This document shows, piece after piece, positions 1,062 to 42,082 of a DNA stretch of 64,000 bases. The notes under the pieces are model-generated. The model was not told the DNA's origin. It did no database searches and worked only from the letters and a program-made list of their open reading frames with translations. Position numbers and translations under genes: made by a program. The DNA comes from Affinirhizobium lemnae. Its GTDB lineage: Bacteria; Pseudomonadota; Alphaproteobacteria; Rhizobiales; Rhizobiaceae. How positions within the stretch are numbered: position 1 is the first letter of the stretch; every line of letters starts with the position of its first letter. The stretch is from NCBI RefSeq assembly GCF_022968395.1, contig NZ_JALJQZ010000001.1, positions 186,001-250,000 of the forward strand, read 5' to 3'.

Positions 1062-1215
1062 AGACTGAGTTTTCACGTGTTTAGATTGTGCCGCATTGTC
1101 GTTTGCCTTGTGGGTTACCGGATTTATTGCTGGCTTGCAAACAACAGCGGCTCGAGCTCTTTATCTTGCAGTGCAACATGCTATAGCTTGGCGATCAGGG
1201 TGGAGGTGTATGCTG

Positions 1216-3168: not shown

Positions 3169-3437
3169 ACCGCAATAGGACTAAGTTTCACTATGTGGCG
3201 GAATTGTCATCCGGTGAACCAAAGACCTAACCATCATAATAAGGTATCGTGTTTTAATCCCTTGTTAAGATGAAAAGGACACCATCGAGTATCGATCCAT
3301 GAAGCGGCAGGAAATTGTCATCATGGGTCGCTCTGGAGACAATCCATCAGCATACTTTAAACTCACAGGCAGCTTCGGCTGCCTTTCTTCTTATTTTTTG
3401 TCAGAAATGGAGCTGATACGCTTCGGTTCTGAGCAAC
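3169..3437. other. Intergenic region, possible small RNA
   Basis: No convincing ORF. The stretch 3240-3399 is AT-rich and ends in a strong intrinsic terminator. It starts more than 60 bases after the acetoacetyl-CoA synthetase stop codon. It could be just a long 3' UTR or a separate small transcript; the sequence alone cannot tell. Confidence 0.3.
3367..3398 (+). terminator. Rho-independent terminator
   Basis: A 7-bp stem AGGCAGC/GCTGCCT closes a TTCG tetraloop and is followed by a T-rich run (TTCTTCTTATTTTTT). It lies about 200 bases after the acetoacetyl-CoA synthetase gene and faces away from it. Confidence 0.75.
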
Positions 3438-5108: not shown

Positions 5109-5174
5109 CCCTTCTTCGTCCGGTCCCTCTACATCAAGACATCAGGAATCGGAATGCCGTCCTACGCGATCCGT

Positions 5175-9151: not shown

Positions 9152-9222
9152 CAACGAAACCCTCTATATAGGAGGTCATGGAGCTTTCCTGATTGGGGCT
9201 CACCAAAAAAAGGACAGATCAC

Positions 9223-9669
9223 ATGGCATACAGAACTGATGACATTTTCTCGTTCTCGACCTTCGATCCGAGCAAGCTGACGGACAGCTTCCGTGAATTC
9301 GCCGAGAAGGGCGCAACGCAGTCCCGCGAAGCCTTCACCAAGATGAAGGACGCTGCTGAAGAAGCGACCAAGGTTGTGGAAACCACCATGCAGACGGCCC
9401 AGTCCGCCTCTGTCGAAATCGGCCTGAAGGCCATCGACGCAATTCGTACCAATGCTGACCTGTCGCTGACGCACATGGAATCGCTCCTGGGCGTCAAGTC
9501 CGTGGCGCAGTTGATCGAGCTTCAGACGGCCTTCATCCGGAAGCAGGCTGAAGTCGCGGTCGAGCAGGCCAAGGCTTTGCAGGAAACAACGCGCAAGGTT
9601 TCGGAAGATGTGTCCAAGCCTGCCAAGGAAGCGGCTGAGAAGGCGTTTTCCACTTTCAAGCCTGCCTGA
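9223..9669 (+). CDS. phaP: Phasin (PHB granule-associated protein)
   Basis: A 148-residue, almost wholly helical protein of the phasin_2 type (residues SREAFTKMKDAAEEATKVVE and SLTHMESLLGVKSVAQLIEL). It coats polyhydroxybutyrate granules in the cytoplasm and limits their coalescence. No signal peptide or membrane span. The ATG at 9223 has AGGA 9-12 bases upstream. It is monocistronic: two PhaR-like sites precede it and a strong terminator follows. The neighbouring acetoacetyl-CoA synthetase fits the same PHB pathway. It matches rhizobial PhaP1-type proteins in length and start (MAYRTDD). Confidence 0.92.
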   Translation: MAYRTDDIFSFSTFDPSKLTDSFREFAEKGATQSREAFTKMKDAAEEATKVVETTMQTAQSASVEIGLKAIDAIRTNADLSLTHMESLLGVKSVAQLIELQTAFIRKQAEVAVEQAKALQETTRKVSEDVSKPAKEAAEKAFSTFKPA

Positions 9670-9689
9670 ACCATATCCTCCCAAGGATA

Positions 9690-9717
9690 GGCCGGACATT
9701 CGTGTCCGGCCATTTTT
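9690..9717 (+). terminator. Rho-independent terminator after phasin
   Basis: A perfect 9-bp stem GGCCGGACA/TGTCCGGCC with a TTCG loop, followed by ATTTTTG. It ends the phasin transcript before the tRNA gene. Confidence 0.9.
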
Positions 9718-9809
9718 GTATGCGGGGCAAAAGAAGGGCTTGCAAAAACAACGCAATCCTCTTATGTCACGCCGCAGAGCAGCGGATCGAACGGTCCGCA
9801 GCCTGATGT

Positions 9810-9886
9810 GCGGTTGTAGCTCAGTTGGTTAGAGCGCAGGTTTGTGGCACCTGAGGTCGGAGGTTCGAGACCCCCCAACCGTACCA
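9810..9886 (+). tRNA. tRNA-His (GTG)
   Basis: A 77-nt cloverleaf with encoded CCA. Anticodon loop TTGTGGC has GTG at 9844-9846 and T-loop TTCGAGA. The acceptor stem pairs GCGGTTG with CAACCGT (a G-U first pair), the discriminator is A and the base before G1 is T. It therefore lacks the usual encoded G-1 opposite C73, the unusual state known for many alphaproteobacterial tRNA-His. Confidence 0.96.
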
Positions 9887-9909
9887 TTTTTCCCTTAGGA
9901 TTGAAGTTG

Positions 9910-10797
9910 TTACTCGGGGACGAAACGTGCTCTGTTTTGTCCGACGATCTCCTGTAAAAACGAAACGACGGTCCTGATGCGTGCCATGTCACGCAGGCTC
10001 TCGTGATAGTTCGTCCAGTAGGCGCGGCGGATTGAGATAGCCGGAAGAATACGGCGCAGTTCCGGCACTTGGCTTGCGATGTAATCGTGCAGGATGCCGA
10101 TACCAGCGCCTGAGCGAACCGCCTCAGTTTGACCGATTGCGCTGGAGATTTCGAAACTGGCATCCCAGTTGCGCATGATTTCACCGGTGAAATTCAGCGA
10201 CGGGGAAAAGATCAGATCTTCCACATAACCGATCCTGGCATGATGCCGCAGGTCTTCGACATCGCGCGGGGCGTCGTGCCGCTTGAGATAATCCTCGGAT
10301 GCATAAAGTCCGAGCGTGTAATCGGTCAGCCGTGCGCAGATCAGTCGCCCCTGCGAGGGCTGCTCGACAGTAATGGCAATATCTGCCTCTCGCGAAGACA
10401 GCGAGAAGGAACGAGGAACGGGCACAAGTTGGATGCGCAGGTTCGGATGCCGACGCATCAGAGGTCCGAGTCTTGGGGCCAGAAATGATACGCCGAAGCC
10501 ATCCGGAGCGCCGATCCTCACGATGCCTTCTATCGGAGCATCGACTTTGCCTGCTCGTGCCTGCGCCGCCAGCATCTCGGTCTCCATGCGTTCTGCCGTG
10601 GCATAAAAGGCATGTCCTTCTGCCGTCAGATCGCATCCACTGGGCTTGCGGATCAGGAGCCGCGTCCGCAATTGCTCTTCAAGCGCATTGATGCGCCGCC
10701 CGAGCGTTGCGTGATTGAGCCCGAGCCTTCGAGACGCCGAAAGCAACTGGCCTTCGCGAGCCACGGCCAAAAAAATGCGCACATTGTCCCAATCCAT
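9910..10797 (-). CDS. LysR-family transcriptional regulator (likely mmsA regulator)
   Basis: A 295-residue LysR-type regulator. The winged HTH occupies about residues 1-60 (WDNVRIFLAVAREGQLLSAS, RRLGLNHATLGRRINALEEQ), followed by a periplasmic-binding-protein-like effector domain from about 90. It is divergent from mmsA across 105 bases that contain a perfect spaced inverted repeat, so control of mmsA is likely. The effector is unknown, perhaps a valine or inositol catabolite. The start is ATG 10797, with GAGG 8 bases upstream; a GTG two codons earlier is less well placed. The 3' end lies 23 bases from the tRNA-His gene, convergent with it. Confidence 0.88.
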   Translation of the reverse strand: MDWDNVRIFLAVAREGQLLSASRRLGLNHATLGRRINALEEQLRTRLLIRKPSGCDLTAEGHAFYATAERMETEMLAAQARAGKVDAPIEGIVRIGAPDGFGVSFLAPRLGPLMRRHPNLRIQLVPVPRSFSLSSREADIAITVEQPSQGRLICARLTDYTLGLYASEDYLKRHDAPRDVEDLRHHARIGYVEDLIFSPSLNFTGEIMRNWDASFEISSAIGQTEAVRSGAGIGILHDYIASQVPELRRILPAISIRRAYWTNYHESLRDMARIRTVVSFLQEIVGQNRARFVPE

Positions 10798-10819
10798 CGA
10801 CACTGCCTCAGACTATAAA

Positions 10820-10864
10820 ATTTGCACAATGGATGCGTAAATCATGCTGTTGTCTTGTGCAAAT
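10820..10864. promoter_or_regulatory. Spaced inverted repeat, putative LysR operator pair
   Basis: ATTTGCACAA at 10820-10829 and its exact reverse complement TTGTGCAAAT at 10855-10864 are 25 bases apart, between the divergent LysR gene and mmsA. Two half-sites with about three helical turns between centres suit a LysR tetramer. The assignment is by position. Confidence 0.55.
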
Positions 10865-10902
10865 GAAAGCGCATACTGCGGCCACAACACTGGAGGAACA
10901 CC

Positions 10903-12399
10903 ATGTATCAAATCGGACATTTCATCGACGGCAAGAAGGTCGCCGGTACATCGGGCCGCAAGCAGGGCATCTTTAATCCCGCTACAGGCGAAGTGCAGGG
11001 TGAAGTCGCTCTTGCCAGCCAGGAAGAACTGAACGCTGCTGTTGCCAGCGCCAAGGCTGCGCAGCCGAAATGGGCTGCCATGAACCCGCAACGCCGCGCA
11101 CGCGTGTTCATGAAGTTCGTTCAATTGCTGAATGATAACATGGATTCGCTCGCCGAAATGCTGTCGCGCGAGCATGGCAAGACGATCGAAGACGCCAAGG
11201 GCGATATCATCCGCGGGCTGGAAGTCTGCGAATTCGTCATCGGCATTCCGCATCTGTCCAAGAGCGAGTTCACGGAAGGCGCTGGTCCGAACATCGATAT
11301 GTATTCCATCCGCCAGGCTGTCGGCGTCGGCGCAGGCATTACGCCGTTCAATTTCCCGGCCATGATCCCGATGTGGATGTTCGCGCCGGCAATCGCCTGC
11401 GGCAACGCCTTCATTCTGAAGCCATCCGAGCGTGACCCTTCGGTTCCGATCCGTCTGGCCGAACTGATGATCGAAGCCGGTTTGCCGGAAGGCATTCTCA
11501 ACGTCGTCAACGGTGACAAGTCGGCTGTCGATGGCATCCTCACCCATCCGGACATCGGCGCCGTTTCCTTCGTCGGCTCCACGCCGATCGCTCGTTATGT
11601 CTACGGAACGGCGGCCATGAACGGCAAGCGCGCCCAGTGCTTCGGTGGCGCCAAGAACCACATGATCATCATGCCGGATGCCGATCTCGATCAGGCTGCC
11701 AACGCGCTGATGGGTGCGGGTTATGGCTCCGCCGGCGAGCGTTGCATGGCCATCTCCGTCGCTGTGCCGGTGGGTGAAGATACGGCGAACCGCCTTATCG
11801 AGAAGCTCACACCCATGGTGGAAAGCCTTCGCATCGGTCCTTACACTGATGACAAGGCCGACCTTGGACCGGTTGTCACCAAGGAAGCACGCGACCGTAT
11901 TCTGGGCCTCATCGACAGCGGCGTCGAAGCCGGTGCAAAGCTTGTGGTCGATGGCCGAGACTTCAAACTCCAGGGTTATGAAAACGGCTACTTCATCGGC
12001 GGCTGCCTGTTCGACAACGTGACGCCGGACATGGACATCTACAAGACCGAGATCTTTGGTCCCGTTCTCTCGGTCGTCCGCGCCAAGACCTACGAAGAAG
12101 CACTCGATCTGCCGATGAAGCATGAATACGGCAACGGCGTTGCCATCTACACCCGCGATGGTGATGCAGCTCGCGACTTTGCCAGCCGTATCAATATCGG
12201 CATGGTGGGCGTCAACGTTCCGATCCCTGTACCGCTGGCCTATCACTCCTTCGGTGGCTGGAAGTCTTCATCCTTCGGCGATCTAAACCAGCACGGCACG
12301 GATTCCATCAAGTTCTGGACCCGGACCAAGACGGTGACCAGCCGTTGGCCTTCCGGCATCAAGGAAGGCGCCCAGTTCGTCATGCCGACGATGAAGTAA
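10903..12399 (+). CDS. mmsA: CoA-acylating methylmalonate-semialdehyde dehydrogenase
   Basis: A 498-residue aldehyde dehydrogenase that oxidises methylmalonate or malonate semialdehyde with NAD and CoA to propionyl- or acetyl-CoA. It is the last step of valine, beta-alanine and myo-inositol breakdown. The catalytic Cys is at about 281 in SAGERCMAIS. The usual Glu base is absent: the segment reads FGGAKNHMII, as in MMSDHs, which use CoA rather than water for deacylation. N-terminal MYQIGHFIDGKKVAG is typical of MmsA. AGGA about 11 bases before the ATG serves as ribosome site. A divergent LysR gene lies upstream and a strong terminator follows. It would serve the beta-alanine transaminase encoded at 29311. 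Confidence 0.95.
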   Translation: MYQIGHFIDGKKVAGTSGRKQGIFNPATGEVQGEVALASQEELNAAVASAKAAQPKWAAMNPQRRARVFMKFVQLLNDNMDSLAEMLSREHGKTIEDAKGDIIRGLEVCEFVIGIPHLSKSEFTEGAGPNIDMYSIRQAVGVGAGITPFNFPAMIPMWMFAPAIACGNAFILKPSERDPSVPIRLAELMIEAGLPEGILNVVNGDKSAVDGILTHPDIGAVSFVGSTPIARYVYGTAAMNGKRAQCFGGAKNHMIIMPDADLDQAANALMGAGYGSAGERCMAISVAVPVGEDTANRLIEKLTPMVESLRIGPYTDDKADLGPVVTKEARDRILGLIDSGVEAGAKLVVDGRDFKLQGYENGYFIGGCLFDNVTPDMDIYKTEIFGPVLSVVRAKTYEEALDLPMKHEYGNGVAIYTRDGDAARDFASRINIGMVGVNVPIPVPLAYHSFGGWKSSSFGDLNQHGTDSIKFWTRTKTVTSRWPSGIKEGAQFVMPTMK

Positions 12400-29327: not shown

Positions 29328-30645
29328 GGGCATCGCCGATCATGGAAACGATCGTCTCGATCTGTTCCTTCTCGATGATCAGCGGCGGCGAGAGAGCAAT
29401 GACATCGCCCGTCACACGGATCAGCAGGCCCTTTTTGAAGCAATCGACGAACACGTCATAAGCGCGCGTTCCCGGTGCACCATCACGCGGGCTAAGTTCG
29501 ATGGCGCCAACGAGGCCGAGATTGCGCACATCCACCACATGCGGATGACCTTTCAGGCTATGCAGCGCCTCCTGCCAGGTCTCTGCCAGACCGGCAGCGC
29601 GCGTCAGAAGGTTTTCTTCCGCATAGATTTCCAGTGTCGCAATGCCAGCGGCGCTGGCCACCGGATGGCCGGAATAGGTGTAGCCGTGGAAGAGCTCTAT
29701 GGCATTCTCCGGTCCGTTCATCAGCCCGTCATAGACCTTGCGGCTGGCGAATACCGCGCCCATCGGGATGGCACCATTCGTCAGGCCCTTTGCCGTGGTG
29801 ACGAGATCCGGCACGACGCCGAAATAGTCGGTTGCAAAAGGTGTGCCGAGGCGACCGAAACCGGTGATGACTTCATCGAAGATCAGCAGGATGCCGTATT
29901 TCTGCGAGATCGCGCGAATGCGCTCCAGATAGCCCTTTGGCGGAAGGATGACGCCGGCAGAACCAGACATCGGCTCGACGATGACGGCGGCAATGGTTTC
30001 CGGCCCATGCAGTTGGACCAGGCGCTCCAGATCTTCCGCCAGTTCCAGACCGTGCGCCGGCAGACCCTTGGAGAAGGCATTGCGCTCGATATCCAGCGTA
30101 TGGCGCATGTGGTCGGCTGGGATCTGCGGGAAGACGCGACGATTATTGACGAGGCCGCCGACGGAAATTCCGCCGAAGCCGACGCCGTGATAACCCTTCT
30201 CGCGACCGATGATGCGGCTGCGCGTACCCTGGCCGATGGCGCGCTGATAGGCGATCGCGATCTTCAGGGCGGTATCGACGGACTCGGATCCGGAGCCTGT
30301 AAAGAAGACGCGGTCAAGCTCAGCGGCAGCACCACCCGGCGCGATCCTTCCCAGTTTTTCGGCAAAATCGAACGCGATCGGATGGCCCATCTGGAAGGTT
30401 GGGGCAAAATCCAGCGTGCGCAGCTGTCGTTCCACGGCATCGGCAATGCGCTTGCGACCGTGACCGGCGTTGACGCACCAGAGACCCGCCGTTCCGTCCA
30501 GCACCGTATTACCATCGACGTCGGTGTAATACATGCCACTCGCGCTGGCGAGCAGGCGAGGAGCGGCCTTGAACTGACGGTTCGCCGTGAACGGCATCCA
30601 GAAATTTTCCAGCGTCGGTGTGTTGGATTGCTTTGTGTAGTCCAT
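29311..30645 (-). CDS. Omega-amino acid (beta-alanine)--pyruvate transaminase
   Basis: A 444-residue class-III PLP transaminase. The Schiff-base lysine is K286 in TTAKGLTNGAIPMG; FDEVITGFGRLG (256-267) holds the cofactor Asp; LENFWMPFTANRQFKAAPR near the start is typical of omega-amino acid:pyruvate transaminases. Beta-alanine would give malonate semialdehyde, which MmsA (10903) can oxidise. AAGGAG upstream fixes ATG 30645 rather than the earlier 30672. It is divergent from a PuuR-like regulator gene, its probable controller. Putrescine- or taurine-type amine donors are alternatives. Confidence 0.87.
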   Translation of the reverse strand: MDYTKQSNTPTLENFWMPFTANRQFKAAPRLLASASGMYYTDVDGNTVLDGTAGLWCVNAGHGRKRIADAVERQLRTLDFAPTFQMGHPIAFDFAEKLGRIAPGGAAAELDRVFFTGSGSESVDTALKIAIAYQRAIGQGTRSRIIGREKGYHGVGFGGISVGGLVNNRRVFPQIPADHMRHTLDIERNAFSKGLPAHGLELAEDLERLVQLHGPETIAAVIVEPMSGSAGVILPPKGYLERIRAISQKYGILLIFDEVITGFGRLGTPFATDYFGVVPDLVTTAKGLTNGAIPMGAVFASRKVYDGLMNGPENAIELFHGYTYSGHPVASAAGIATLEIYAEENLLTRAAGLAETWQEALHSLKGHPHVVDVRNLGLVGAIELSPRDGAPGTRAYDVFVDCFKKGLLIRVTGDVIALSPPLIIEKEQIETIVSMIGDALKRVA

Positions 30646-30801
30646 GGCGGTTCGGCTCCTTCGGCACAGCATGTCATGCTGGTGTGGGCGATTTTTGAGA
30701 TGCCAACAAGTCCTTTTCTCTCAATCTGTAAGCTATTGATTTTTCGATATAGAAGTTGCAGGATTTGCGATATCTTCAACATCCGAAACAGTGGATCTAT
30801 C

Positions 30802-31350
30802 GTGTCTGTCGATGTGGGTAACCGTCTTCGCCATCTGCGCATGGCCCATAAGCTTTCACAGCGGGAACTGGCCAAGCGCGCTGGTGTAACAAACTCCACT
30901 ATATCGTTGATCGAATCGAACGCCTCCAATCCATCCGTTGGGGCACTGAAGCGCATTCTCGATGGCATTCCCATCGGGCTCGCCGAATTCTTCGCCTTCG
31001 AGCCGGATAAGCCGAAGAAGGCCTTCTATGCGGCAGAAGAGCTTGTCGAGATCGGCAAGGGCAAGATCTCCTATCGCCAGATCGGCGATAATCTGTTTGG
31101 CCGTAGTCTGCAGATCCTGAAGGAATGCTATCAGCCGGGCGCCGATACGGGCAAGGTCCCGCTTGTTCACGAAGGAGAGGAGGGCGGTATCGTGCTGTCC
31201 GGCCGTCTTGAGGTGACGGTGGATGAAGAGCGCCGGATCCTCGGACCCGGCGATGCCTATTATTTCGAGAGCCGCAGACCACATCGTTTCCGCTGTGTCG
31301 GGCCTGTTCCCTGCGAGGTCATCAGCGCCTGCACGCCGCCAACCTTCTGA
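30802..31350 (+). CDS. XRE-cupin transcriptional regulator, PuuR-like
   Basis: A 182-residue regulator with an N-terminal XRE HTH (residues 5-60, QRELAKRAGVTNSTISLIES) and a C-terminal cupin domain (HEGEEGGIVLSGRLEVTVDE, GPGDAYYFESRRPHRFR). Size and layout match E. coli PuuR, which represses putrescine use. The start is GTG 30802: the HTH begins at once after it, and the open frame upstream is antisense to the transaminase gene. It is divergent from the transaminase and is the natural candidate to control it. Confidence 0.87.
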   Translation: MSVDVGNRLRHLRMAHKLSQRELAKRAGVTNSTISLIESNASNPSVGALKRILDGIPIGLAEFFAFEPDKPKKAFYAAEELVEIGKGKISYRQIGDNLFGRSLQILKECYQPGADTGKVPLVHEGEEGGIVLSGRLEVTVDEERRILGPGDAYYFESRRPHRFRCVGPVPCEVISACTPPTF

Positions 31351-31352
31351 CA

Positions 31353-32057
31353 TCAAACGGAGCGCATCAATCCGCCATCCACTTTCAGGCTCTGGCCGGT
31401 GATATAGCCCGCACCTTCGGAAACGAGGAAGGAGATGGTGGCCGCGATTTCCTCCATCGTGCCATAGCGCTTCATCGGCACGCTCTCACGCCGCTCCTCC
31501 GTGCCGGGCAGACTGTCGATCCAGCCTGGCAGAACATTGTTCATGCGCACATTGTCGATGGCATAAGTATCGGCAAACAGTTTCGTATAGGCCGCAAGAC
31601 CCGCACGGAACACGGCAGAGGTGGGGAACATGGGCGATGGCTCGAACACCCAGGCGGTCGAGATGTTGACGATGGTGCCAGCCTTTTGCGCCTGCATGAT
31701 GGGCGCCACCAGTCGAACCGGGCGGATGACGTTCATGAGATAGACATCCATGCCGGTGTGCCACTGCTCGTCGGTGATATCCAGAAGCTGCGCGCGCGGT
31801 CCATGGCCGGCAGAGTTCACCAGCGCGTCGATCCGGCCCCACTTTTCCATGGCGCCATCGATCAGCCGCTTGAGATCATCGTTCGATTGGTTGGAGCCGG
31901 TCACGCCGATGCCGCCAAGCTCTGTGGCCAAGGCTTCGCCCTTGCCGGAGGAGGAAAGGATGGCAACCTTGTAGCCATCGGCGGCGAGCCGCTTTGCGGC
32001 TGCCGCGCCCATGCCGCTGCCGCCCGCCGTAATGAGTGCCACTTTCGTCTCTGACAT
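31353..32057 (-). CDS. SDR-family protein with altered catalytic residues
   Basis: A 234-residue Rossmann-fold protein. The nucleotide motif ALITAGGSGMG (7-17), NSAG (81-84) and the C-terminal GYITGQSLKVDGGLM are classic short-chain dehydrogenase marks. The usual Ser-Tyr-Lys catalytic set is missing: aligned positions read Thr134, Ser147 and Arg151 (ISTAW and TSAVFRAGLAAYTK). It may bind NAD(P) without ordinary reductase chemistry. GGAGGC precedes ATG 32057. It is convergent with the PuuR-like gene, whose stop is 2 bases away. Substrate unknown. Confidence 0.8.
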   Translation of the reverse strand: MSETKVALITAGGSGMGAAAAKRLAADGYKVAILSSSGKGEALATELGGIGVTGSNQSNDDLKRLIDGAMEKWGRIDALVNSAGHGPRAQLLDITDEQWHTGMDVYLMNVIRPVRLVAPIMQAQKAGTIVNISTAWVFEPSPMFPTSAVFRAGLAAYTKLFADTYAIDNVRMNNVLPGWIDSLPGTEERRESVPMKRYGTMEEIAATISFLVSEGAGYITGQSLKVDGGLMRSV

Positions 32058-32058
32058 G

Positions 32059-32190
32059 ATCTCTGCCTCCATAAGCTACAGCGCGGCGCGTTCGATTGAA
32101 CGCGCGAACGACGCTGTAAGACTTTAAATTAATGCATATCGCGCTCAACCGAATCCGGTTGAGCGCGATATGCATTAGTGAGGCAGAGAT
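32059..32190. repeat. Nested palindromic element with 11-bp terminal repeats
   Basis: Ends ATCTCTGCCTC (32059-32069) and GAGGCAGAGAT (32180-32190) are exact inverted copies. Inside lie hairpin 1 (32078-32117, core GCGCGTTC/GAACGCGC) and hairpin 2, perfect 22-bp arms at 32130-32151 and 32156-32177 around a 4-base loop. It lies just before the SDR gene and its left end carries that gene's ribosome site. Confidence 0.8.
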
Positions 32191-32243
32191 ATCACGGAAG
32201 GGAGCGACTGCAAGGGTGTTTCCAACCGGGAGAGGCGAGAAGC

Positions 32244-33161
32244 CTATTCAATACCGAGCTGTTCCGCCGTAATCCAGAACACTGCATCCTGGGATTCTGC
32301 TGTCTCCAGCCAGGTGAATTCCAGATGCGGGAATTCCTCTTCCAGAATTTCGCGACCGGAACCGATTTCGCACAACAGGCCGCCCTCGGGCGTCAAATAT
32401 TTCGGTGCCTCGCGCAGGATTTCGCGAACGAGATCAAGTCCGTCTTCTCCGCCATCATGGGCCATGCGCGGCTCGGCCTGATATTCCGGCGGGTAGCCGG
32501 CAAGGGCTTCATGATCCACATAGGGCGGATTGGTGATGATGAGATCGTAGCGTCGTCCATCAAGCGGCTTGAAGAGATCACCCTGATGAAGCGTCACCTG
32601 ACCCTCCACCTCGTGCTCGGCGACGTTGAGCCTGGCGACTTCCAAAGCATCGGCTGACAGGTCAACCGCATCGACCTCCGCCTGCGGGAAGAACTTCGCC
32701 ATGATAACGGCCAGACAGCCGGAACCGGTGCAGATATCCACGGCACGTTCCACCATCATCGGATCCGGCAGCCAGTTGGAGCCATGCGGGTTGGTGTATT
32801 CCGCAAACAGGATTTCGCCGATATGCGAGCGAGGAACGATGACCCGCTCGTCCACATGAAAGCGCACACCCTGGATGTAGGAATGACCGGTTATGTAAGA
32901 GGACGGCTTGCGTGTGGAAACGCGCGTCTCGATCCGCTCCGCCAGAAGCTTGCGTTCGTGGGGCAGAAGTCTTGCATCCAGAAACGGGTCCAGCGTATCG
33001 ATCGGCAGGTCGAGCGAATCGAGCAGCAGGAAAGCAGCGTCATCGCCTGCATTTCTAGTGCCGTGACCATAGGCCAGATCTGCCGCGTTGAAGCGCGAAA
33101 TGGCATAACGCCAATAGTCGCGCAGCGTTACGAGTTCCTGAGTGATGAGGTCAGTGTTCAA
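32244..33161 (-). CDS. prmB: Ribosomal protein L3 N5-glutamine methyltransferase PrmB
   Basis: A 305-residue class-I SAM methyltransferase. SAM motif AVDICTGSGCLAVIMAKFFP lies near 140, and the glutamine-specific NPPYVDHEALAGYPPEYQAE near 210 is the PrmB/PrmC signature; YITGHSYIQGVRFHVDERVI marks PrmB. It methylates a glutamine of ribosomal protein uL3 in the cytoplasm. Length matches E. coli PrmB (310). It is divergent from the pseudouridine synthase gene. The next gene on this strand follows the palindromic element and is unrelated. Confidence 0.93.
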   Translation of the reverse strand: MNTDLITQELVTLRDYWRYAISRFNAADLAYGHGTRNAGDDAAFLLLDSLDLPIDTLDPFLDARLLPHERKLLAERIETRVSTRKPSSYITGHSYIQGVRFHVDERVIVPRSHIGEILFAEYTNPHGSNWLPDPMMVERAVDICTGSGCLAVIMAKFFPQAEVDAVDLSADALEVARLNVAEHEVEGQVTLHQGDLFKPLDGRRYDLIITNPPYVDHEALAGYPPEYQAEPRMAHDGGEDGLDLVREILREAPKYLTPEGGLLCEIGSGREILEEEFPHLEFTWLETAESQDAVFWITAEQLGIE

Positions 33162-33287
33162 GATCGTCTCACTTCCTGACTTGGGTTATCGCAGTTCCAG
33201 GTTATGGCACTTATAAAATATGGTCGTGCAAAACTGCCCTCGCTGTAGAATGGTGCGTGCGGCTGGTCAACAGAGTGAAGAACAACG

Positions 33288-34118
33288 GTGAGAAACAGAA
33301 ATGCGCGCGGTCAGCGACCGCCAGCCCGGTCTCCGGGAAGGGTGCTGGGCAAAGCCGGCAAGCCGAAACTGAAGGCTGCGCCAAAGGCGGCTGCGGGCCA
33401 GCGCGTGACCCTGGCGCGGGCGCTTTCCAAGCTTGGCTTCTGTTCGCGCACGCAAGGGGAAGAACTCATGCGCGCGGGCCGCGTTTCCCTTGATGGAAAT
33501 ATCACGACTGACCTCGAAACCTGGCTGGACCTCGACACCGCAAATATCAGCGTGGATGGCCGACCGGTCGTCGCAGAAGACCATGTTTATCTGATGCTCA
33601 ACAAACCGCGCGGCCTCGTCACCACCCGTCACGATCCGCAGGGTCGGGCAACAGTCTATGATTGCCTGAAACATCTGCCGGACCGGCATGTTTCCCCGGT
33701 CGGACGTCTGGACAAGGCGAGCGAAGGCCTGTTGCTCTTCACCAACGATACGCGATTTGCTGATGCCCTGCTCGATCCCAGAACGCATGTTTCTAAAACT
33801 TACCATGTACAGATCGATGGGCCTGCGGACGACACGCTCATTGAGGGCCTGCGAGCCGGCGTGGTGCATGACGAAGAAAGACTGAGCGCCAGACGCGTGG
33901 ATGTCTTGCGGCAGGGCGAGAAAAACGCCTGGCTGGAAATTGTGCTCGATGAGGGCAAGAACCGGCAGATCCGCCGAATGCTGGAGGCGCATCAGGTCGA
34001 ATGTCTCAGGCTCGTGCGCGTTGCTATCGGCGATCTGACGCTTGGAGATCTGGCAAAAGGTGAAAGCCGCAATCTAATGGAAGCCGAGGTCCTCGCACTC
34101 AAGCGGCTTTCTGGTTGA
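33288..34118 (+). CDS. rRNA pseudouridine synthase, RsuA/RluB/RluE family
   Basis: A 276-residue enzyme. A basic Pro/Lys/Arg-rich tail (1-40) precedes an S4 RNA-binding domain (VTLARALSKLGFCSRTQGEE) and the catalytic domain with GRLDKASEGLLLFTND, where the Asp is the nucleophile, then NRQIRRMLEAHQVECLRLVR. It isomerises a uridine in ribosomal RNA; whether 16S or 23S cannot be read from sequence. The start is taken as GTG 33288 (MRNRNARG); there is no strong ribosome site. It ends 2 bases before the stop of the convergent GreA-like gene. Confidence 0.88.
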   Translation: MRNRNARGQRPPARSPGRVLGKAGKPKLKAAPKAAAGQRVTLARALSKLGFCSRTQGEELMRAGRVSLDGNITTDLETWLDLDTANISVDGRPVVAEDHVYLMLNKPRGLVTTRHDPQGRATVYDCLKHLPDRHVSPVGRLDKASEGLLLFTNDTRFADALLDPRTHVSKTYHVQIDGPADDTLIEGLRAGVVHDEERLSARRVDVLRQGEKNAWLEIVLDEGKNRQIRRMLEAHQVECLRLVRVAIGDLTLGDLAKGESRNLMEAEVLALKRLSG

Positions 34119-34120
34119 CG

Positions 34121-34618
34121 TTAACACACGTCTTGAAGGGTGATGGAAAGCAGTTCCAGTTCCTGTCCGCCCGCCATGACGACATCGCCCACACGTTTTC
34201 CCACAAGCTGCCTCGCAACGGGCGATACGTAAGAGATGCTGCCTGCCTTGGGGTCTGCTTCATCTTCCCCCACGATCCGGTAGGTCTGAACCCTGCCGTC
34301 CTCCCTTGAGAAGGTGACGGTGTGGCCGAAAGCGACCACCTCGGTATCTGTCGGATCCGGTACGATCTGGGCAGTCCTTACCCGTTCCGTCAGATAGCGC
34401 AGGTCACGCAGCGGTCCGGCAGCCTGTCGTCTTCTTTCGTTAATGTCGTCGATTGCGCTGGACGCCTGGTAGGCCTCTCGCGCTTCCTCCAGCTGCCGCT
34501 TCATTTGCTCCAGTCCAGCCTCGGTCACAAGGTTTGGATGCGGCGATATGGGGCGGTCCGGCAACAGGGTTTCCGCTGCCGTTTCTGCACTCTCTTCATT
34601 TACGAAGGCCACACTCAT
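34121..34618 (-). CDS. GreA/GreB-family transcript cleavage-type factor
   Basis: A 165-residue protein with a short N-terminal coiled coil (LVTEAGLEQMKRQLEEAREA) and a C-terminal FKBP-like Gre domain (GSISYVSPVARQLVGKRVGD, ending in the hydrophobic strand QELELLSITLQ). Such factors enter the RNA polymerase secondary channel. The acidic pair at the coiled-coil tip (SSAIDDINERRR) suggests cleavage activity is retained. An N-terminal extension of about 30 residues is unlike GreA proper, so it is a paralogue rather than the main GreA. Start ATG 34618 has AAGAAAGAG upstream. Confidence 0.82.
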   Translation of the reverse strand: MSVAFVNEESAETAAETLLPDRPISPHPNLVTEAGLEQMKRQLEEAREAYQASSAIDDINERRRQAAGPLRDLRYLTERVRTAQIVPDPTDTEVVAFGHTVTFSREDGRVQTYRIVGEDEADPKAGSISYVSPVARQLVGKRVGDVVMAGGQELELLSITLQDVC

Positions 34619-34642
34619 GACGGACTCTTTCTTCTGGACTGC

Positions 34643-34747
34643 TAAAGCGTGTCGCGATCTTTCAGATTCGCTTCTAACGCTTTAGGTCTTTTCTCATCGC
34701 ATGTCGTTATCGCAAAACCGCTGCACACTTTTAGCGACGACATGCTT
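34643..34747 (-). repeat. Rhizobial intergenic repeat, full copy D (105 bp)
   Basis: Inverted relative to copy B and exactly as long; blocks such as TCGCAAAACCGCTGCACACT are identical to the complement of copy B. It marks the border between core genes and the accessory stretch to its right. Confidence 0.85.
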
Positions 34748-35446
34748 CAGCAACTACATGATGCTCTTTGAGTTTCCGCATTGTACGTTTGCGCTGAGAG
34801 CGTGTTGCAGGCAGGAATCAATGTCAAATTCATTGCACTGGTGCAGTCGCGTGCGGCGATTTCTCGTTAAGGAAATGCAATGAACCAACGGATGAAGTGT
34901 ACAGCTCCAATCTGCGATATTGGGAGGTGCTCTAAATCATATTTATGCTTTGCACAGAATAAGGCTTAGGCGAACCTGTCATCTACTTTGCCACGAAAGT
35001 CCGCAAGAAGTTGCACTATCTCGGGTCAACCCATGATGTAATTAAGTACAAACATCACCTAACGTCTGGAGGTTTTTTGGTTGGGAGACATGGATTCTCA
35101 TATGATTTCAAAGGCTTAACAAAATCGCCTTTGATTTCCTATGTTTTCCTGCCGCGAGCGACCATGGATGCTATCTTTGTGCCCTGGCTTTGGGCCGACG
35201 TCAACATGGCGGGAGAGCGGCATTTATTTCCGCTCAAGAACGCACTGCTGACGGCTGATATTTGCGACCTCGGATGAGGTGATTAGCGTAAGTAAAAGTT
35301 GACCATTATGGGGTTCGGATGGACGCCAGTTTGCGCGCCGCGCCGCCTACAGCCTGCTGACCTTCTCCGTCGCATGGCAGGTGTGGGGCTGTTCCCTAGG
35401 GCTTTGGCAAGGGTAACCGTTCCGCTCCCGCATGGTTCATTGCCCT
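34748..35446. other. Gene-poor accessory flank
   Basis: AT-richer than the surrounding core. The longest frame, 35011-35277 (+), would give 88 residues (TMDAIFVPWLWADVNMAGER) without a ribosome site or family; I do not call it. 35320-35410 is GC-rich and may be a relic of another gene. An inverted repeat ATTGCCC (35439-35445)/GGGCAAT (35461-35467) spans the stop of the HEPN gene. Confidence 0.35.
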
Positions 35447-35851
35447 TTAAGTACGAGGCTGGGCAATAACGAATTCGACGCCAAGAGCGACCCGGGACAG
35501 CTCTTGGGCTACCGCGAGCTCAATCGCTGTCGAGCCATCATCAGTCGGAGTGATGGAAAATTGATTGTTGAATCGGTCTTCTAGTCTTGTTGCTTCGCTT
35601 CTAAATCGTTCGGGTAGGGCGTCAAGGATGGTCTCCTTGATGGTTGCCGCCGCTTCCCCAAGAGGTGGCAACTCAGATCCGGAGAGCCTATTCGCTATGC
35701 GACTGCTCAGATCTTGGATGTCACTAGTCTCTATATTCGATGACTCTGAACAGAACCAGGCCGTTCGACGTCCGGGTTTGAATACAATTCGTTCTTGCTC
35801 GCCGGAGGCCGCAGCAGCCCGCTCTCTAGCGTATTCAAGAAGCGCTTCTTT
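35447..35851 (-). pseudogene. C-terminal part of the HEPN protein in the -1 frame
   Basis: From 35851 the -1 frame stays open for 134 residues to a TAA at 35447. It reads like real protein (KEALLEYARERAAAASGEQE, RTAWFCSESSNIETSD, SSRIANRLSGSELPPLGEAA, ALPERFRSEATRLEDRFNNQ), while the zero frame here gives a Ser/Pro-rich tail typical of a wrong frame. Joined after Thr464 it makes a protein of about 598 residues. A one-base deletion near 35850, a sequencing error or, less likely, frameshifting on C-ACA-AAG would explain it. A smaller frame from a TTG at 35671 lies within this part. Confidence 0.65.
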
Positions 35852-37242
35852 GTGTCGAAGTGATAACTGCGGTTGCGGACAAGAGCCGCCAGTCGCAACA
35901 GTCCCCAGAGCACTTCCTTGTCCAGATCGCTCCCGTCAAACAGAACATCGGTCCGGCTAATTGCAGCAGCAGCTTTATCCGTGCGTCCAGAGTCCATCTG
36001 GAATTCGTGCTTCCTTGCCCCGAAGATCAGTCTAGCATGCGATACTATTTTTTCGATCTTCGTGCATTCGAGAGCGCCGGCAGCCGTCTTGTTCAGTGTG
36101 AGGTCCCGATAAGCAGGCTTTCGTCCGCCGGCCTTGTCGGCGTTGAAGCTGTTTTCTGCATGAAGATTGACACCTTCTGCCAGCCAAGTTGCATGAGTCC
36201 TGATCGAGAATGCGACCGCATTCCGCACGACACGGACGAAGGCCTTGTTTCTCTTGATGTCTGACTGGCCGACGCTCGTGGTGTAGTAGTCCATGGCCTT
36301 GCGGACGAGCGAGTTGAAATCAGCGCCCGCATGTCCGGAGCAGATGTCCACGGAGTGCGCAATGATCTTGCCAAGCCTGATTTTGCGGGTGAGACGAGTC
36401 GCATCTCGTTTGCCGCCAACGCGCGCCAGCAGCTCGTCCATGTTCTGTGGCAGAAGGAAACGAAGCTTGTTGTTGTCGCCGGTTCTCAGGGCTTCCAGCA
36501 AACGTGTGCTCTCGGCAAGAGAGCGATAAAAATGCCGGATGCGATTGTGAAGGTTCCACAGTTCCTGGCGCTTCTCTTCCGGAATAGAGGGGTCATTCAG
36601 AACTTTGCCGAAGTGGTCGTATAGAGCGGCTCCGATCCTCTGTCTGGGGCGACCCTTGCGCGATTCGGCTCTGAACCCCTCGATGATCTGACGAGCGACG
36701 TCGCCGTGTCGAGTGTAGAGATCTTCAAGCTCTTCCGACCAGACCTTGTGTTTTTCAAAACCCTCAAGATCACGGGGGTCGGTCGCATTGAGTGTGATGA
36801 TCTCACCGCGCTTGTTGATGAAGCCGTAGCCTGTCGGCCGCTTGTCACTCTTTCGCTCTTTGCCCTCGATCGTCAGTTCCTGCAGTCGGAGATGATCTTC
36901 GATCTTGCCGGCAGCCTCGCGGTAGGCTTCAGCGCCTGATGCGCCAATGGGAACTTTAAAGACGGATGTCCAGCGAGTCTTTGAGACTGGGGCTCCGCTC
37001 GTGCTACCGCTAGCAGCCCGCGCTTCGACAATGTCCTTGGCATTGTCATCTGTCTCCGGCTTCTTCCAGTTCACTTCATGCCGGGCATAGGGATGAACCT
37101 TGGCCTGCCAGCGCTTAAGATATAGCTGATATTCAGGATCCTGCAGCGGCACGTCCTCGAACTGCAGATCGGCGAAAAGATTCCAAAGGCAGGTGCCGAG
37201 ATGAGTTCTCGCGATATAAGAGGGCAAATCGAACTGCCCCAT
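35731..37242 (-). CDS. Uncharacterised protein with two HEPN-like RNase motifs
   Basis: A 503-residue frame (MGQFDLPSYIARTHLGTCLW). No family assigned. Residues 456-461 are RNRSYH, in AALVRNRSYHF, an intact RNxxxH motif of HEPN ribonucleases. Residues 232-237 read HNRIRH in WNLHNRIRHFYRSL, the same pattern with Arg replaced by His. The region between and before is Arg/Lys-rich and mostly helical. Two spaced HEPN motifs recall Cas13 and its proposed AbiF-like relatives, but no CRISPR array, Cas1/Cas2 or neighbouring toxin or antitoxin gene is seen. The frame breaks just after the second motif and continues in -1 (next entry left). It lies in an accessory stretch beside tRNA-Gln. Start ATG 37242 is the only ATG after the upstream stop; its ribosome site is weak. 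Confidence 0.6.
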   Translation of the reverse strand: MGQFDLPSYIARTHLGTCLWNLFADLQFEDVPLQDPEYQLYLKRWQAKVHPYARHEVNWKKPETDDNAKDIVEARAASGSTSGAPVSKTRWTSVFKVPIGASGAEAYREAAGKIEDHLRLQELTIEGKERKSDKRPTGYGFINKRGEIITLNATDPRDLEGFEKHKVWSEELEDLYTRHGDVARQIIEGFRAESRKGRPRQRIGAALYDHFGKVLNDPSIPEEKRQELWNLHNRIRHFYRSLAESTRLLEALRTGDNNKLRFLLPQNMDELLARVGGKRDATRLTRKIRLGKIIAHSVDICSGHAGADFNSLVRKAMDYYTTSVGQSDIKRNKAFVRVVRNAVAFSIRTHATWLAEGVNLHAENSFNADKAGGRKPAYRDLTLNKTAAGALECTKIEKIVSHARLIFGARKHEFQMDSGRTDKAAAAISRTDVLFDGSDLDKEVLWGLLRLAALVRNRSYHFDTKKRFLNTLESGLLRPPASKNELYSNPDVERPGSVQSHRI

Positions 37243-37810
37243 CTTCTTGGCTTCGATCGGTGGATTTGCTCTTGAGCATCAATCCGCGTGAAGGGAGTGG
37301 CCGGCGTTCCTCCTGAGCGGCTGGAGGGCCGCCTTTATTCTCTAGCTCGGCCGCGACGTCCCTCAAATCGTGTGTAGCTGGTTCCCTTAGATCTCAGTAA
37401 GCGCATTCTTGCCCCCTCAGCTGTTACCAGACGAAGCATGAATTCAGCATATGGTTGCAGGGTGGTGCAGCGGGTTATCTTTGGGCTGAAATAGGTCAAA
37501 CCAAATTTTTTTGGATAAGGTGACATTGACTGCCAAGACGGAAAGGGCAGCCCAAATTCTATGGGTGCCGACCGCACGCAAAAAGCGGACACGGAAAGCA
37601 TGTCCTTATCCGTTCGCCCGGTTCAAGATCGCGGAGCTTTGATAGAGCGGTGTCAGGCAACGATCCCAGCGTGAACTCCTGCTGCTTCGAACAACCTTAC
37701 TCCCTTGAGGCGTACATGTATGCTGATCCGGATAGGTGCTTAGGCAAACTGTTCCGGTTGCTGATTGCGTCAACAATCTAAGTAACTGAGAATAAACGAG
37801 AAAAAGAGTT
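37243..37810. other. Gene-free flank between HEPN gene and tRNA-Gln
   Basis: No credible ORF. It should hold the HEPN gene's promoter. One clear long-range stem is listed at 37480-37556. I looked for CRISPR-like direct repeats and for a second copy of the tRNA 3' end and saw none. Confidence 0.4.
37480..37556 (-). ncRNA. Candidate structured RNA upstream of the HEPN gene
   Basis: TTTGGGCTG (37480-37488) pairs perfectly with CAGCCCAAA (37548-37556), and inside lies a second stem CCAAA/TTTGG (37501-37514) with a T4 loop. It is about 240-315 bases upstream of the HEPN start. The structure is visible; that it is transcribed or functional is only a guess. Confidence 0.25.
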
Positions 37811-37884
37811 TGGCTGGGGAACCTGGATTCGAACCAAGATTAACGGAGTCAGAGTCCGCCGTTCTACCATTGAACTATTCCCCA
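37811..37884 (-). tRNA. tRNA-Gln (CTG)
   Basis: A 74-nt cloverleaf with encoded CCA: acceptor TGGGGAA/TTCCCCA, discriminator G, anticodon loop CTCTGAC (anticodon at 37852-37850), T-loop TTCGAAT. Its 3' end faces the accessory stretch to the left, as expected for an integration target. Confidence 0.97.
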
Positions 37885-38221
37885 ATCGCAAGGAGCTACG
37901 CCCTTGTAATGGCGATGCAGGCTTTCGTCGGAGAAGAAGCCCGATGCATTTTTACCCCGCAACATCGTGAGCGCCCTTCTAACAGAATTCCGCAGGTGAT
38001 CAAGAGCGGTCGGCAAGTTTTTTGAGGAGAGCTGAAATTTTCCCGTGTGGTGAAAAATGCGCCGTCCGTCGGGGAGCATTCTCGGCATGATTTGCCTCTT
38101 CAAGCTTTCTGGATAAAGCCATTGGCGAATTCGCCAGAGGCTGTTATCCTGTTGCCAACGAAACGATTAACGCCGCTGCGGGCAAGCAATGCTCTGGGCG
38201 CGGCCATGGAATAAGACAGTG
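37885..38221. other. Intergenic region before ppx
   Basis: No gene seen. A 14-bp perfect palindrome TGGCGAATTCGCCA lies at 38123-38136, within 100 bases of the exopolyphosphatase start, and could be an operator. The left part is the tRNA-Gln promoter. Confidence 0.4.
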
Positions 38222-39904
38222 ATGAACCCCGATAGCGGCGGAAAGCCGCCCGTAGGTGGTACGTCGGCAGATGGGCGACCCGGGGGTAAACCCCGCCGTC
38301 GCCGCAGGGCGAAACGGGGCGGCAAGCAGATTGCTGCGCCTGAAGGCTCGCGTGTACACGACGCGCAGGCCCGTTCTGAAGTCCGACGGCCGGAAACACA
38401 GGAACAACTCTCCCCGCGAAAGCGAAAGCGCCGCCGTGCGCGTGGCAACGGCCAGTCTGGCGGATCGCCGGGCGGTAGCGCGGGTGCGCAAGCGGGCGCA
38501 GCGGGACCTGCAAATGCCGATGCTCAATCGGGGCCGGACGCGACGTCGGCCAAGTCGGCTAACGCGGCAGGTCATGCGCCAAATGCAGGCCGGCGCAAGG
38601 GGCGAGGCAAGAAGGCGCACCAGGCGCGTGGTCTGCAGGGGCGCCCGCTCGCCACGCAGTCTCATGGGCATGGAAAGGGCGGGGCGGGTGCGAAAGCGCT
38701 CCAGACTTCTCCCTCGATGGCAACTACTGGCACGGCAAAGCCGCATCAGGCGAAAGGCGGCCATTCAAAGGGCCCGGCGCACCTCAGGCATGCTTCCGAT
38801 CAACCGGCACGCACGTCATCTGGCGGTGACCAGTTCGCGGACCAGCGCCGACGCTCGCAGGCCGATGATCTCTACGCGGCGCTCGATCTTGGCACCAATA
38901 ACTGCCGTCTGCTGATTGCACAGCCAACGCGCCCGGGGCAGTTCCGCGTCGTGGATGCGTTCTCGCGCATTGTTCGTCTGGGTGAAGGACTGGCCGCGAC
39001 CGGAAGGCTTTCCGACGAGGCCATGGATCGTGCCGTAGAGGCGCTCAAAATCTGCGCTTCCAAGCTTGCCTCCCGCCAGATCCGCAAGATGCGTTTGATT
39101 GCGACGGAGGCCTGCCGTGCAGCGGCCAATGGCGAGGATTTCCTTGAGCGTGTCACCCGCGAGACCGGACTGACGCTGGAAATCATCGATCGGGAAACGG
39201 AAGCGCGGCTTGCCGTCTCCGGCTGCTCGTCGCTGGTCGGGCGCGAAGCGCGCTCGGTCGTTCTGTTTGACATCGGCGGCGGCTCGTCTGAAATCGCGGT
39301 CATTCGCATTCAGGACAATCGCTCCAGCCGGTTGGCCAACCACATCACGCACTGGACATCGCTGCCGGTGGGCGTGGTTACACTTTCGGAGCGCCATGGT
39401 GGGCGCGATGTCACACCCACCGTTTTCTCGGCCATGGTGGCGGAGGTCGAAACCATGCTTGCAGGTTTCGATTGCCCGAACTTTGGTGAAACCGACGGTC
39501 AGGAGCCGGATCCCGAATTCCACCTTATCGGAACCTCTGGCACGGTAACGACGCTTGCCGGCGTTCACCTCGATCTGCCACGCTATGATCGCCGCAAGGT
39601 GGATGGGCTCTGGTTGTCGGACGCGGAAGTCAGCGCCATGCAGGAGAAACTTCTGTCCTGGGATTTCGAGGGCAGGGCAACCAATCCCTGCATTGGGCCG
39701 GACAGGGCAGATCTGGTGCTCGCCGGATGTGCCATTCTGGAGGCTATCCGCCGTCGCTGGCCATCGCGACGCATGCGTGTCGCCGACCGCGGCCTTCGTG
39801 AAGGCCTGCTGACAGATATGATGGCGGATGATGGTGTCTGGCGCCGCGCGCGCGGACGCCGCGCTGAACATTCGGCCCGCAGTGCCGGGGAGACGCACAG
39901 ATGA
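38222..39904 (+). CDS. ppx: Ppx/GppA family phosphatase with basic N-terminal tail
   Basis: A 560-residue protein. The Ppx/GppA domain starts near 215 ([20 protein letters not shown]), with [20 protein letters not shown], catalytic Glu in [14 protein letters not shown] and the phosphate loop [15 protein letters not shown]. It hydrolyses polyphosphate and/or pppGpp. The first 214 residues are a low-complexity Gly/Arg/Lys/Ala tail, as in several rhizobial homologues. I start at ATG 38222 since the frame before it has no support; a later start near the domain is possible. It overlaps rlmE by ATGA, so the two are translationally coupled. Confidence 0.88.
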
Positions 39905-40632
39905 CGAAAACACCGATCGGCCGAAAGCTCGGTCAAAAGGTCAAGAAGGGCAAGCTCAAGGCGTCGTCTCGCCGATGGCTGGAGCGTCATATCAACGACC
40001 CCTATGTCCAGCGGGCGAAGCTGGAGGGATATCGCGCCCGTGCCGCTTTCAAGCTGCTGGAAATCGACGAGAAGCACCAGATCCTGAAGGGCGCTCGCCG
40101 GATCATTGACCTTGGCGCCGCGCCCGGAAGCTGGTCGCAGATTGCCGCGAAAGTGACCGGATCGACGGAGGAGGATGTGCGCGTTGCGGCCATCGACTTC
40201 CTCGAAGTCGCACCCATTCCCGGTGTCAAGATCCTGCAACTCGACTTTCTGGATGATGATGCGCCACGCCAGCTGATGGAAGCTGTTGGCGGAACGCCAA
40301 ACCTCGTGATGTCCGATATGGCGGCGCCGACCACCGGCCACCAGAAGACGGACCACCTGCGCACCATGCATCTGTGCGAAGTGGCGGCCTATTTCGCTGT
40401 AGAAGTTCTGGCGGAAGGTGGGCACTTTCTGGCGAAAACCTTCCAGGGCGGTACGGAGAAAGATCTGCTGAACATGCTCAAGCAGAATTTTCGGCAGGTC
40501 ATGCACATCAAGCCTGCCTCCTCCCGTTCCGAATCGGTCGAAATGTTCCTGCTGGCCAAGGGCTTCAAAGGCCGCAAGGCTGTTCAGGATGCGGAAGATG
40601 CTACAATCGAGAGCGAGACCGCTGAGGAGTAG
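39901..40632 (+). CDS. rlmE: 23S rRNA 2'-O-methyltransferase RlmE (FtsJ/RrmJ)
   Basis: A 243-residue SAM enzyme that methylates U2552 of 23S r[19 protein letters not shown] is the SAM motif; [20 protein letters not shown] includes the catalytic Asp, and the K-D-K-E set completes with AKTFQGG and [17 protein letters not shown]. The N-terminal basic stretch ([20 protein letters not shown]) is typical of alphaproteobacterial forms. The start overlaps the ppx stop. It is convergent with the drug exporter gene, whose stop is 7 bases away. Confidence 0.94.
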
Positions 40633-40639
40633 CAGCGAT

Positions 40640-42082
40640 CTATTCGCCCGGCGCCTCTGCCGGATCGGCGGTTCTGATGCGATGGCCGGAGACGCTTGCG
40701 CCCGCATGGCGCGGTAGCGAGAGGATCGGGATGATCGAACAGAGCGAGATCGCCGAGACGATCAGGAAGGCCAGATGAAAATCCGCCAGTTGCAGGTGCG
40801 TTCCTGAGATATAGGAGGAAGACTCCAGTACGAGCGCTGCAAAGGCCACGCCAAGCGCCAGACTGACCTGCTGCATGACGGAACTGATGGACGTTGCCTG
40901 GCTCGCCTCGTCATCTCCGATGTCGGAATAGCTCAGAGCATTTGCGCCCGTGAAGAACAGCGACCGCGCAAGGCCCGATGCAAATAGGAAAAACGTGATG
41001 ATGAGCGGCGGCGTGGCTGCAGTGAACAGCGCGTTCACGGCGGTCATTGCCGCACCTGCGACGCTTGCGCTCATGAGTGCCGTTCTGAACCCGATGGCGG
41101 CGAAGGCACGCTTTGCAACAAACTTGACTGTCAGCGCGCCAGCAGCCCCGGCAAAAGTGGTGAGGCCCGATTGAAACGGCGTCATCCCGAAGCTCAGCTG
41201 CAACATCAACGGCATGAGAAAAGGAACGGCACCGGTTGCTATTCGAAAAAGCGAACCGCTGGTGGTCGCAGCCCGGAAGGCCGTGTTGCGGAAGATCTCC
41301 AGTTTCAGGATGGGGTTCGGGTGACGCCGCGAATGCAGGATGTAAAGCCCTCCGCAGAGTATGCCCAGCAGCGTCGTGCCGATGCCGATCGCTGGTGGCA
41401 GAGCCGGAAGACTGACGACGGATAGCCCGAACACGAGTCCTGCCGCCGCAACAGCGGTCAGAACGAACCCGATCTTGTCCAGCGGCGGCGCTCCGCGGGG
41501 AGGAATCTCCGGAAGATGCACGGAAGATAGCCAGATGCCGATGATCCCGATCGGTACATTGATGATGAAGATCCAGTGCCAGGTGAAATAGGTGGTGATA
41601 AAGCCGCCGATCGGCGGACCGGTCAGCGGGCCGACCAGTGCCGGAATCGTTAGCAGCGCCATGGCCGAAACGAGATCCTTGCGGTCCGTCGTTCTGAGCA
41701 GAACGAGGCGACCGATGGGTGTCATCATCGCGCCGCCCATGCCCTGCAGGAAGCGTGACATGACGAAGCTGAAGACGGACGAGGAAATCGCACAAAAAAT
41801 CGAGCCGACGACGAAAACGCCGATGGCCAGCCGAAAAACGTTCTTCGCGCCGAACTTGTCTGCCATCCAGCCGCTGATCGGGATGAAGACCGCCAGCGAC
41901 ACCATATAGGAGGTAAGCGCCAGCTTGAGCGTGATCGGGCTTACGCCGAGATCCATCGCGATGGCCGGTAAAGCTGTCGAGATAACGGTGGAGTCCATGT
42001 GTTCCATGAACAGGGCTACGGCGAGGATCAGCGGTACGATGCGGTTCATGCGGTCACGCTCAACAAAGATTGTGTCACTCAC
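40640..42082 (-). CDS. MFS drug efflux transporter, DHA2 (14-span) type
   Basis: A 480-residue inner-membrane exporter with about 14 spans. MDSTVISTALPAIAMDLG and SRFLQGMGGAMMTPIGRLVL are DHA2 motifs (MdtD/EmrB-like); the motif-C region reads GPLTGPPIGGFI. It likely expels drugs or metabolites with protons. A regulator gene is not adjacent; the divergent neighbour is the Tat-exported MBL-fold protein. Substrate unknown. Confidence 0.88.
   Translation of the reverse strand: MSDTIFVERDRMNRIVPLILAVALFMEHMDSTVISTALPAIAMDLGVSPITLKLALTSYMVSLAVFIPISGWMADKFGAKNVFRLAIGVFVVGSIFCAISSSVFSFVMSRFLQGMGGAMMTPIGRLVLLRTTDRKDLVSAMALLTIPALVGPLTGPPIGGFITTYFTWHWIFIINVPIGIIGIWLSSVHLPEIPPRGAPPLDKIGFVLTAVAAAGLVFGLSVVSLPALPPAIGIGTTLLGILCGGLYILHSRRHPNPILKLEIFRNTAFRAATTSGSLFRIATGAVPFLMPLMLQLSFGMTPFQSGLTTFAGAAGALTVKFVAKRAFAAIGFRTALMSASVAGAAMTAVNALFTAATPPLIITFFLFASGLARSLFFTGANALSYSDIGDDEASQATSISSVMQQVSLALGVAFAALVLESSSYISGTHLQLADFHLAFLIVSAISLCSIIPILSLPRHAGASVSGHRIRTADPAEAPGE

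Follow-up and report, generated by a model that had tools for sequence, protein, structure and literature searches.

The 503-amino-acid (aa) open reading frame (ORF) that lies between a GreA/GreB-family gene and tRNA-Gln in Affinirhizobium lemnae is very probably a recently decayed Cas13a, the relic of a type VI-A/RT1 effector gene. In intact Cas13a the N-terminal half binds crRNA, and HEPN1 and HEPN2 form a composite site which cuts RNA once a target has paired with the crRNA. The features of the locus are given below in positions of the window, which is the whole 64,000-nucleotide stretch of DNA that was analysed.

34121..34618, minus strand: GreA/GreB-family gene, core flank
34639..37810, no strand: variable segment, replaced by other DNA in the two nearest relatives
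35450..35755, minus strand: 3' end of another gene, out of frame with the 503-aa ORF, resembling a 274-aa protein of genome G017 in its C-terminal part
35731..37242, minus strand: 503-aa ORF, the probable cas13a remnant, corresponding to about residues 97-592 of the 1423-aa Rhizobium deserti Cas13a
35749..37230, minus strand: cas13a residues 101-592 (fragment-by-fragment tblastn)
35860..35877, minus strand: RNRSYH, HEPN1 RX4H motif (R456, H461), R and H identical in 19/19 alignment rows
36532..36549, minus strand: HNRIRH, second motif of the first-pass annotation, no conserved HEPN site, both H in 2/19 rows
37157..37303, minus strand: cas13a residues 36-81, out of frame (tblastn 43% identity, clear by eye over the first ~15 residues only); the gap of about 130 bp relative to R. 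deserti falls in this piece of the DNA alignment
37353..37406, minus strand: cas13a residues 1-18 including the native start, in another frame (tblastn 94% identity over 18 residues; DNA alignment)
37811..37884, minus strand: tRNA-Gln, anticodon ctg
38189..39904, plus strand: Ppx/GppA-family gene, core flank

Family assignment and distribution

The NCBIfam profile NF038188 (Cas13a) matches the 503-aa ORF at 186.2 bits, above its curated cut-off of 150 bits, and the match spans only positions 80-527 of the 1192 in the profile; this combination of a score above the cut-off and partial coverage marks the ORF as a fragment of a Cas13a gene. PADLOC also returned Cas13a (1.1e-49), Pfam returned no family at E <= 1 and PHROGs gave no match. 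The first-pass annotation had regarded the protein as unassignable to any family, which the NCBIfam and PADLOC matches contradict: the sequence-profile search for homologues leads to Cas13a, and to an intact long homologue with a CRISPR array in R. deserti. The ORF is most likely an ordinary case, a decayed representative of a family already known, and the claimed novelty is not supported. A literature search found no mention of this cas13a relic, which may still have been reported before.

Searching the A. lemnae assembly (a draft of 108 contigs, 99.99% complete) with both the ORF and the Cas13a profile gave a single matching place. Four of the 57 genomes of the genus, its own included, match the ORF: that of A. 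lemnae; R. deserti SPY-1, with a 1426-codon open frame at 66% identity; Rhizobium sp. FKY42 (G031), with a 1423-codon open frame at 32% identity; and G016, whose weak match (L005, E 2.6e-4) was rejected as a chance hit, being antisense to a 524-aa ORF that we label oxidase-like. A truncated homologue of the window's form was found in none of the 56 other genus genomes. Across the family-wide sample Cas13a occurs in 5 of 394 genomes, in four of them over the cut-off. None of the 28 pattern matches from a contig scan with a single protein as query was a relative; the alignment-based contig scan gave 18 Cas13a loci and a viral scan two, which entered the BLAST database and had no other use. A plasmid search gave no match.

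Fragment map against an intact homologue

The Cas13a of R. deserti SPY-1 is intact, with 1423 aa, and is followed by six CRISPR repeats and an RT-Cas1 gene. According to a passage in Toro et al. 2019 (PMC6753606), the Cas13a proteins of Rhizobium sp. SPY-1 and FKY42 belong to the type VI-A/RT1 group with RT-Cas1. The window's ORF is 66% identical to the R. deserti protein across 494 aligned columns, and tblastn by fragments places three pieces of cas13a (residues 1-18, 36-81 and 101-592) in different frames. The ATG at 37242 from which the 503-aa ORF is read is not the native start of cas13a and sits within the former gene, as seen both by tblastn and by DNA alignment with R. deserti, and within the first 100 codons the DNA alignment reveals a shifted frame and, relative to R. 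deserti, a gap of about 130 bp.

Residues 593-1423 of the R. deserti protein, the C-terminal 58% including HEPN2, have no counterpart in the window, where the only match is at chance level and far away (E 8). Homology stops about 35 residues past RNRSYH. A figure legend in PMC13401041 gives the domain order of Cas13a as NTD, Helical-1, HEPN1, Helical-2, HEPN1-II, Linker and HEPN2, and by this order the end of homology should fall before HEPN1-II.

HEPN motifs and the 598-residue reading

The two motifs on which the first-pass annotation built its proposal are present in the 503-aa ORF as described: RNRSYH occupies residues 456-461 and HNRIRH residues 232-237, with 224 residues between their starts. 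A protein of this composition seldom has as many as two matches to [RH][NH]xxxH, since 2,000 shuffled versions contained 0.156 on average (P 0.0085). When the window's ORF is aligned with 18 relatives (19 rows), RNRSYH alone is conserved; the columns of HNRIRH read NNAVRT, HEAVKA, HMAVKD and similar in other rows, and no row but those of the window and R. deserti has both of its histidines. HNRIRH is, by these columns, no HEPN active site, and what had been taken for a degenerate second HEPN corresponds to a part of the N-terminal half that is not conserved. The true HEPN2 reads RNDLAH in R. deserti Cas13a, at residues 1260-1265. A HEPN2 site near the C-terminus was found by pattern in 16 of the 18 relatives, the exceptions being L033, where the contig end cuts it, and L037, which reads RDDLMH.

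The protein of about 598 residues dissolves into two ORFs in different frames and from two gene families. The second ORF runs from stop to stop at 35450-35935, in another frame than the 503-aa ORF, and its 35450-35755 part resembles a 274-aa protein of G017 (30% identity over about 100 residues, E 2.1e-6; in the reverse search, 26% over 121 residues). Among the 57 genus genomes this part is matched in G017 and in the A. lemnae genome only. Taken together, the frames and relatives of the two ORFs identify the locus as a join of two gene remnants, and reading across such a join of broken genes can mimic a novel two-HEPN protein. The G017 gene comes after a HerA-type ATPase gene, a neighbour that suggests a possible defence role for the second remnant.

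CRISPR array and adaptation genes

The R. deserti repeat has no match in the window, which also holds no CRISPR-like tandem array. The pattern common to the two Rhizobium repeats, the only one covered by the genome-wide repeat search, was not found with up to 3 mismatches in the window or the A. lemnae genome, in a search that had no positive control genome. Cas1 was not found in the A. lemnae genome, with 9 of 14 control genomes positive, and one RT-like match there (C63) has no Cas1 part. The first-pass annotation had proposed a protein that acts without a CRISPR array. A broken system is a likelier cause of the missing array than a stand-alone design, as the C-terminal 58% of the protein, the relatives' kind of repeat and Cas1 were all not found.

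The relatives' loci provided further observations. Beyond RT-Cas1, both Rhizobium type VI-A/RT1 loci encode a conserved protein of ~700 aa (L021 13361-15436 and L022 13766-15925; 38% identity) with hydrophobic stretches near its C-terminus, which has no match in Pfam, NCBIfam or PADLOC, nor in PHROGs for the L006 copy, the one searched there. It was not found by tblastn in the other Cas13a loci, whose flanks are 6 kb or less, and the 692-aa protein had no match in the A. lemnae genome in a search without positive control; it is a candidate accessory gene of the Rhizobium type VI-A/RT1 systems. In another genome (G061), contig C20 (L020) carries at 9209-10417 a Cas13a remnant that is C-terminal only and so mirrors the one in the window. 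It is flanked by GTCGCTCCCTTCACGGGAGCGTGGATAGAAAC repeat arrays (pieces from 563 to 8917) and by a further array whose repeat is not the same (10558-10991), and elsewhere in that genome a Cas13a frame is open over 1380 codons (L008).

Genomic site

The remnant stands beside a tRNA, as the first-pass annotation had noted, namely tRNA-Gln at 37811-37884. Homology to the nearest relatives, G022 and FKY42, stops at 34638, beside the GreA/GreB-family gene, and at 37810, at the 3' end of tRNA-Gln. The interval between them measures 3.2 kb in the window, about 13.5 kb in FKY42, where it contains a type I restriction-modification set (C51 about 688733-702283), and about 103 kb in G022 (C4 about 226557-329992), an island read at its two ends, where an integrase-like gene adjoins the tRNA (PHROGs phrog_1, 8e-14; in Pfam DUF6538 only). 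On this comparison we take the GreA/GreB to tRNA-Gln interval to be a mobile insertion hotspot, which would make it a site of turnover for defence and mobile genes.

Other elements were observed in the same interval. Window positions 34639-34760 carry a dispersed repeat of ~107 bp with best copies at 91-92% identity, and 31 of the 34 own-genome matches of 34639-35450 lie within the first 122 bases of the query; the repeat presumably resembles rhizobial RIME elements. About 155 bp at 35077-35235 are 79-80% identical to two places at the end of the G022 island (L019 374-528 and 6471-6628), perhaps a shared piece of a mobile element.

Structure, phylogeny and selection

The AlphaFold model of the fragment is of middling confidence (mean pLDDT 71.4, pTM 0.44). 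Its best structural match is Rhodobacter capsulatus Cas13a (7os0), with a Foldseek E of 3e-7 and a low TM-score of at most 0.37 of the query. VIA-align superposes the model on 7os0 with Z 11.2 and rmsd 11.4 over 385 residues, values to be read with the caution that helical models may often reach a Z of up to about 13; Z is 7 or more only for 7os0, for a pair of Cas13a-AcrVIA1 entries and for a pair of entries titled riboendonuclease, and the best of the remainder has 5.2.

The window and R. deserti are sisters with support 100/99, on end branches of 0.12 and 0.27 respectively, in a tree with an unsettled bootstrap, 11 of 16 inner branches open and long branches meeting at L031. Over 492 aligned codons the NG86 estimates are dN 0.25 and dS 3.6, and those of LWL85 0.25 and 2.0; dS is saturated and the ratio is therefore rough only, although strong past constraint on the window's cas13a codons is plain. 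At conserved columns 9 of 46 residues are changed in the window, one of them in a misaligned tail, hardly more than the 8 of 46 in R. deserti, and one of the window's changes falls on the E of KRNEAF, which all 17 other relatives share. Constraint together with the short end branch would mean either that the break is very recent or that the truncated frame is still constrained, between which one genome cannot decide.

Decay and alternative explanations

With HEPN2, 5' integrity, array and Cas1 missing, the remnant most likely has no function, and the lack of native start, HEPN2, array and adaptation gene leads us to take it as a recent relic. The simplest event would be a deletion which took everything past the first part of HEPN1, HEPN2 included, leaving a stump that is joined, in the wrong frame, to the 3' end of another gene. 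The 5' end is frameshifted and partly deleted, the rest of the type VI-A/RT1 system would have been lost from the genome, and the remnant is most likely what gene turnover left behind at a mobile defence hotspot beside tRNA-Gln. The points that speak against decay are the 503-codon frame, which is still open, the past constraint and an end branch shorter than that of R. deserti. These same points, with the retained R and H of HEPN1 and a dN that is low relative to dS, would suit a truncated N-terminal half of Cas13a that is functional and under selection as a crRNA binder or processor, or as an HEPN1 homodimer RNase, but we consider this very unlikely: the native start stands in another frame and the ORF begins at an ATG inside the former gene, the homology ends where, by domain order, HEPN1-II would still be to come, neither Cas1 nor the relatives' kind of repeat was found in the genome, and none of the 56 other genus genomes has a homologue truncated alike. 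It is most improbable that the 503-aa half is still made and selected as a minimal guide-RNA binder or homodimeric HEPN1 ribonuclease born from a broken Cas13a gene, which, if true, would be a reversal of the proposed path from AbiF to Cas13.

There is hardly any chance that the locus encodes a novel stand-alone Cas13/AbiF-like defence RNase with two HEPN motifs and about 598 residues, the view first proposed. An HEPN RNxxxH motif and kinship with Cas13 are indeed present, and this much of the proposal stood; the protein is however part of Cas13a itself and not a new family, its 598 residues cross two frames and two gene families, HNRIRH is not conserved, and R. deserti has an intact long homologue with an array. 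There is also no Pfam match, and over 30000-42000 Rfam returned only the tRNA at gathering threshold, with the AbiF RNA RF03085 not found. The match to Cas13a, the alignment columns of the motifs and the map of fragments led us to reject AbiF, Cas13an and an unknown stand-alone RNase alike. Equally implausible is an intact Cas13a gene broken merely by an error of the draft assembly, for which the 108 contigs and the clustering of frameshifts at the 5' end might be cited: in an assembly that is 99.99% complete, the searches turned up neither another piece of Cas13a nor Cas1 nor the relatives' kind of repeat, and what follows the join is a different gene. Assembly errors might in principle account for the 5' frameshifts but hardly for the lost 3' half. 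As a decayed Cas13a, the candidate novel RNase becomes a fossil that would record how a Rhizobium-group genome lost its type VI-A/RT1 system.

Comparison with known systems

The closest known system is the type VI-A/RT1 Cas13a of R. deserti SPY-1, which has the same HEPN1 motif, is 66% identical and is the sister of the window in the tree; it is intact and accompanied by HEPN2, six repeats and RT-Cas1, none of which was found in the window. The best structural match, R. capsulatus Cas13a (7os0), is a full-length enzyme in contrast to the fragment described here, and by sequence it is detected weakly by the fragment (E 0.082) and well by the R. deserti protein (9.6e-39). AbiF/AbiD HEPN systems have a protein of the Abi_2 family, which was not found for the 503-aa ORF, as it matches no Pfam family at E <= 1.

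According to an excerpt of PMC12165695, AbiF/AbiD systems have an associated non-coding RNA (RF03085), and Cas13an proteins, of 429-577 aa, carry two HEPN domains with RX4H sites and lack a canonical REC lobe. The window shares the HEPN RX4H nuclease site with both Cas13an and AbiD/F as described there, and the 503-aa ORF falls within the Cas13an size range given, with one conserved RX4H site compared with two in Cas13an. In contrast to Cas13an, the window's fragment has an N-terminal region of the Cas13a type followed by a single partial HEPN, and its sequence match is plainly to Cas13a.
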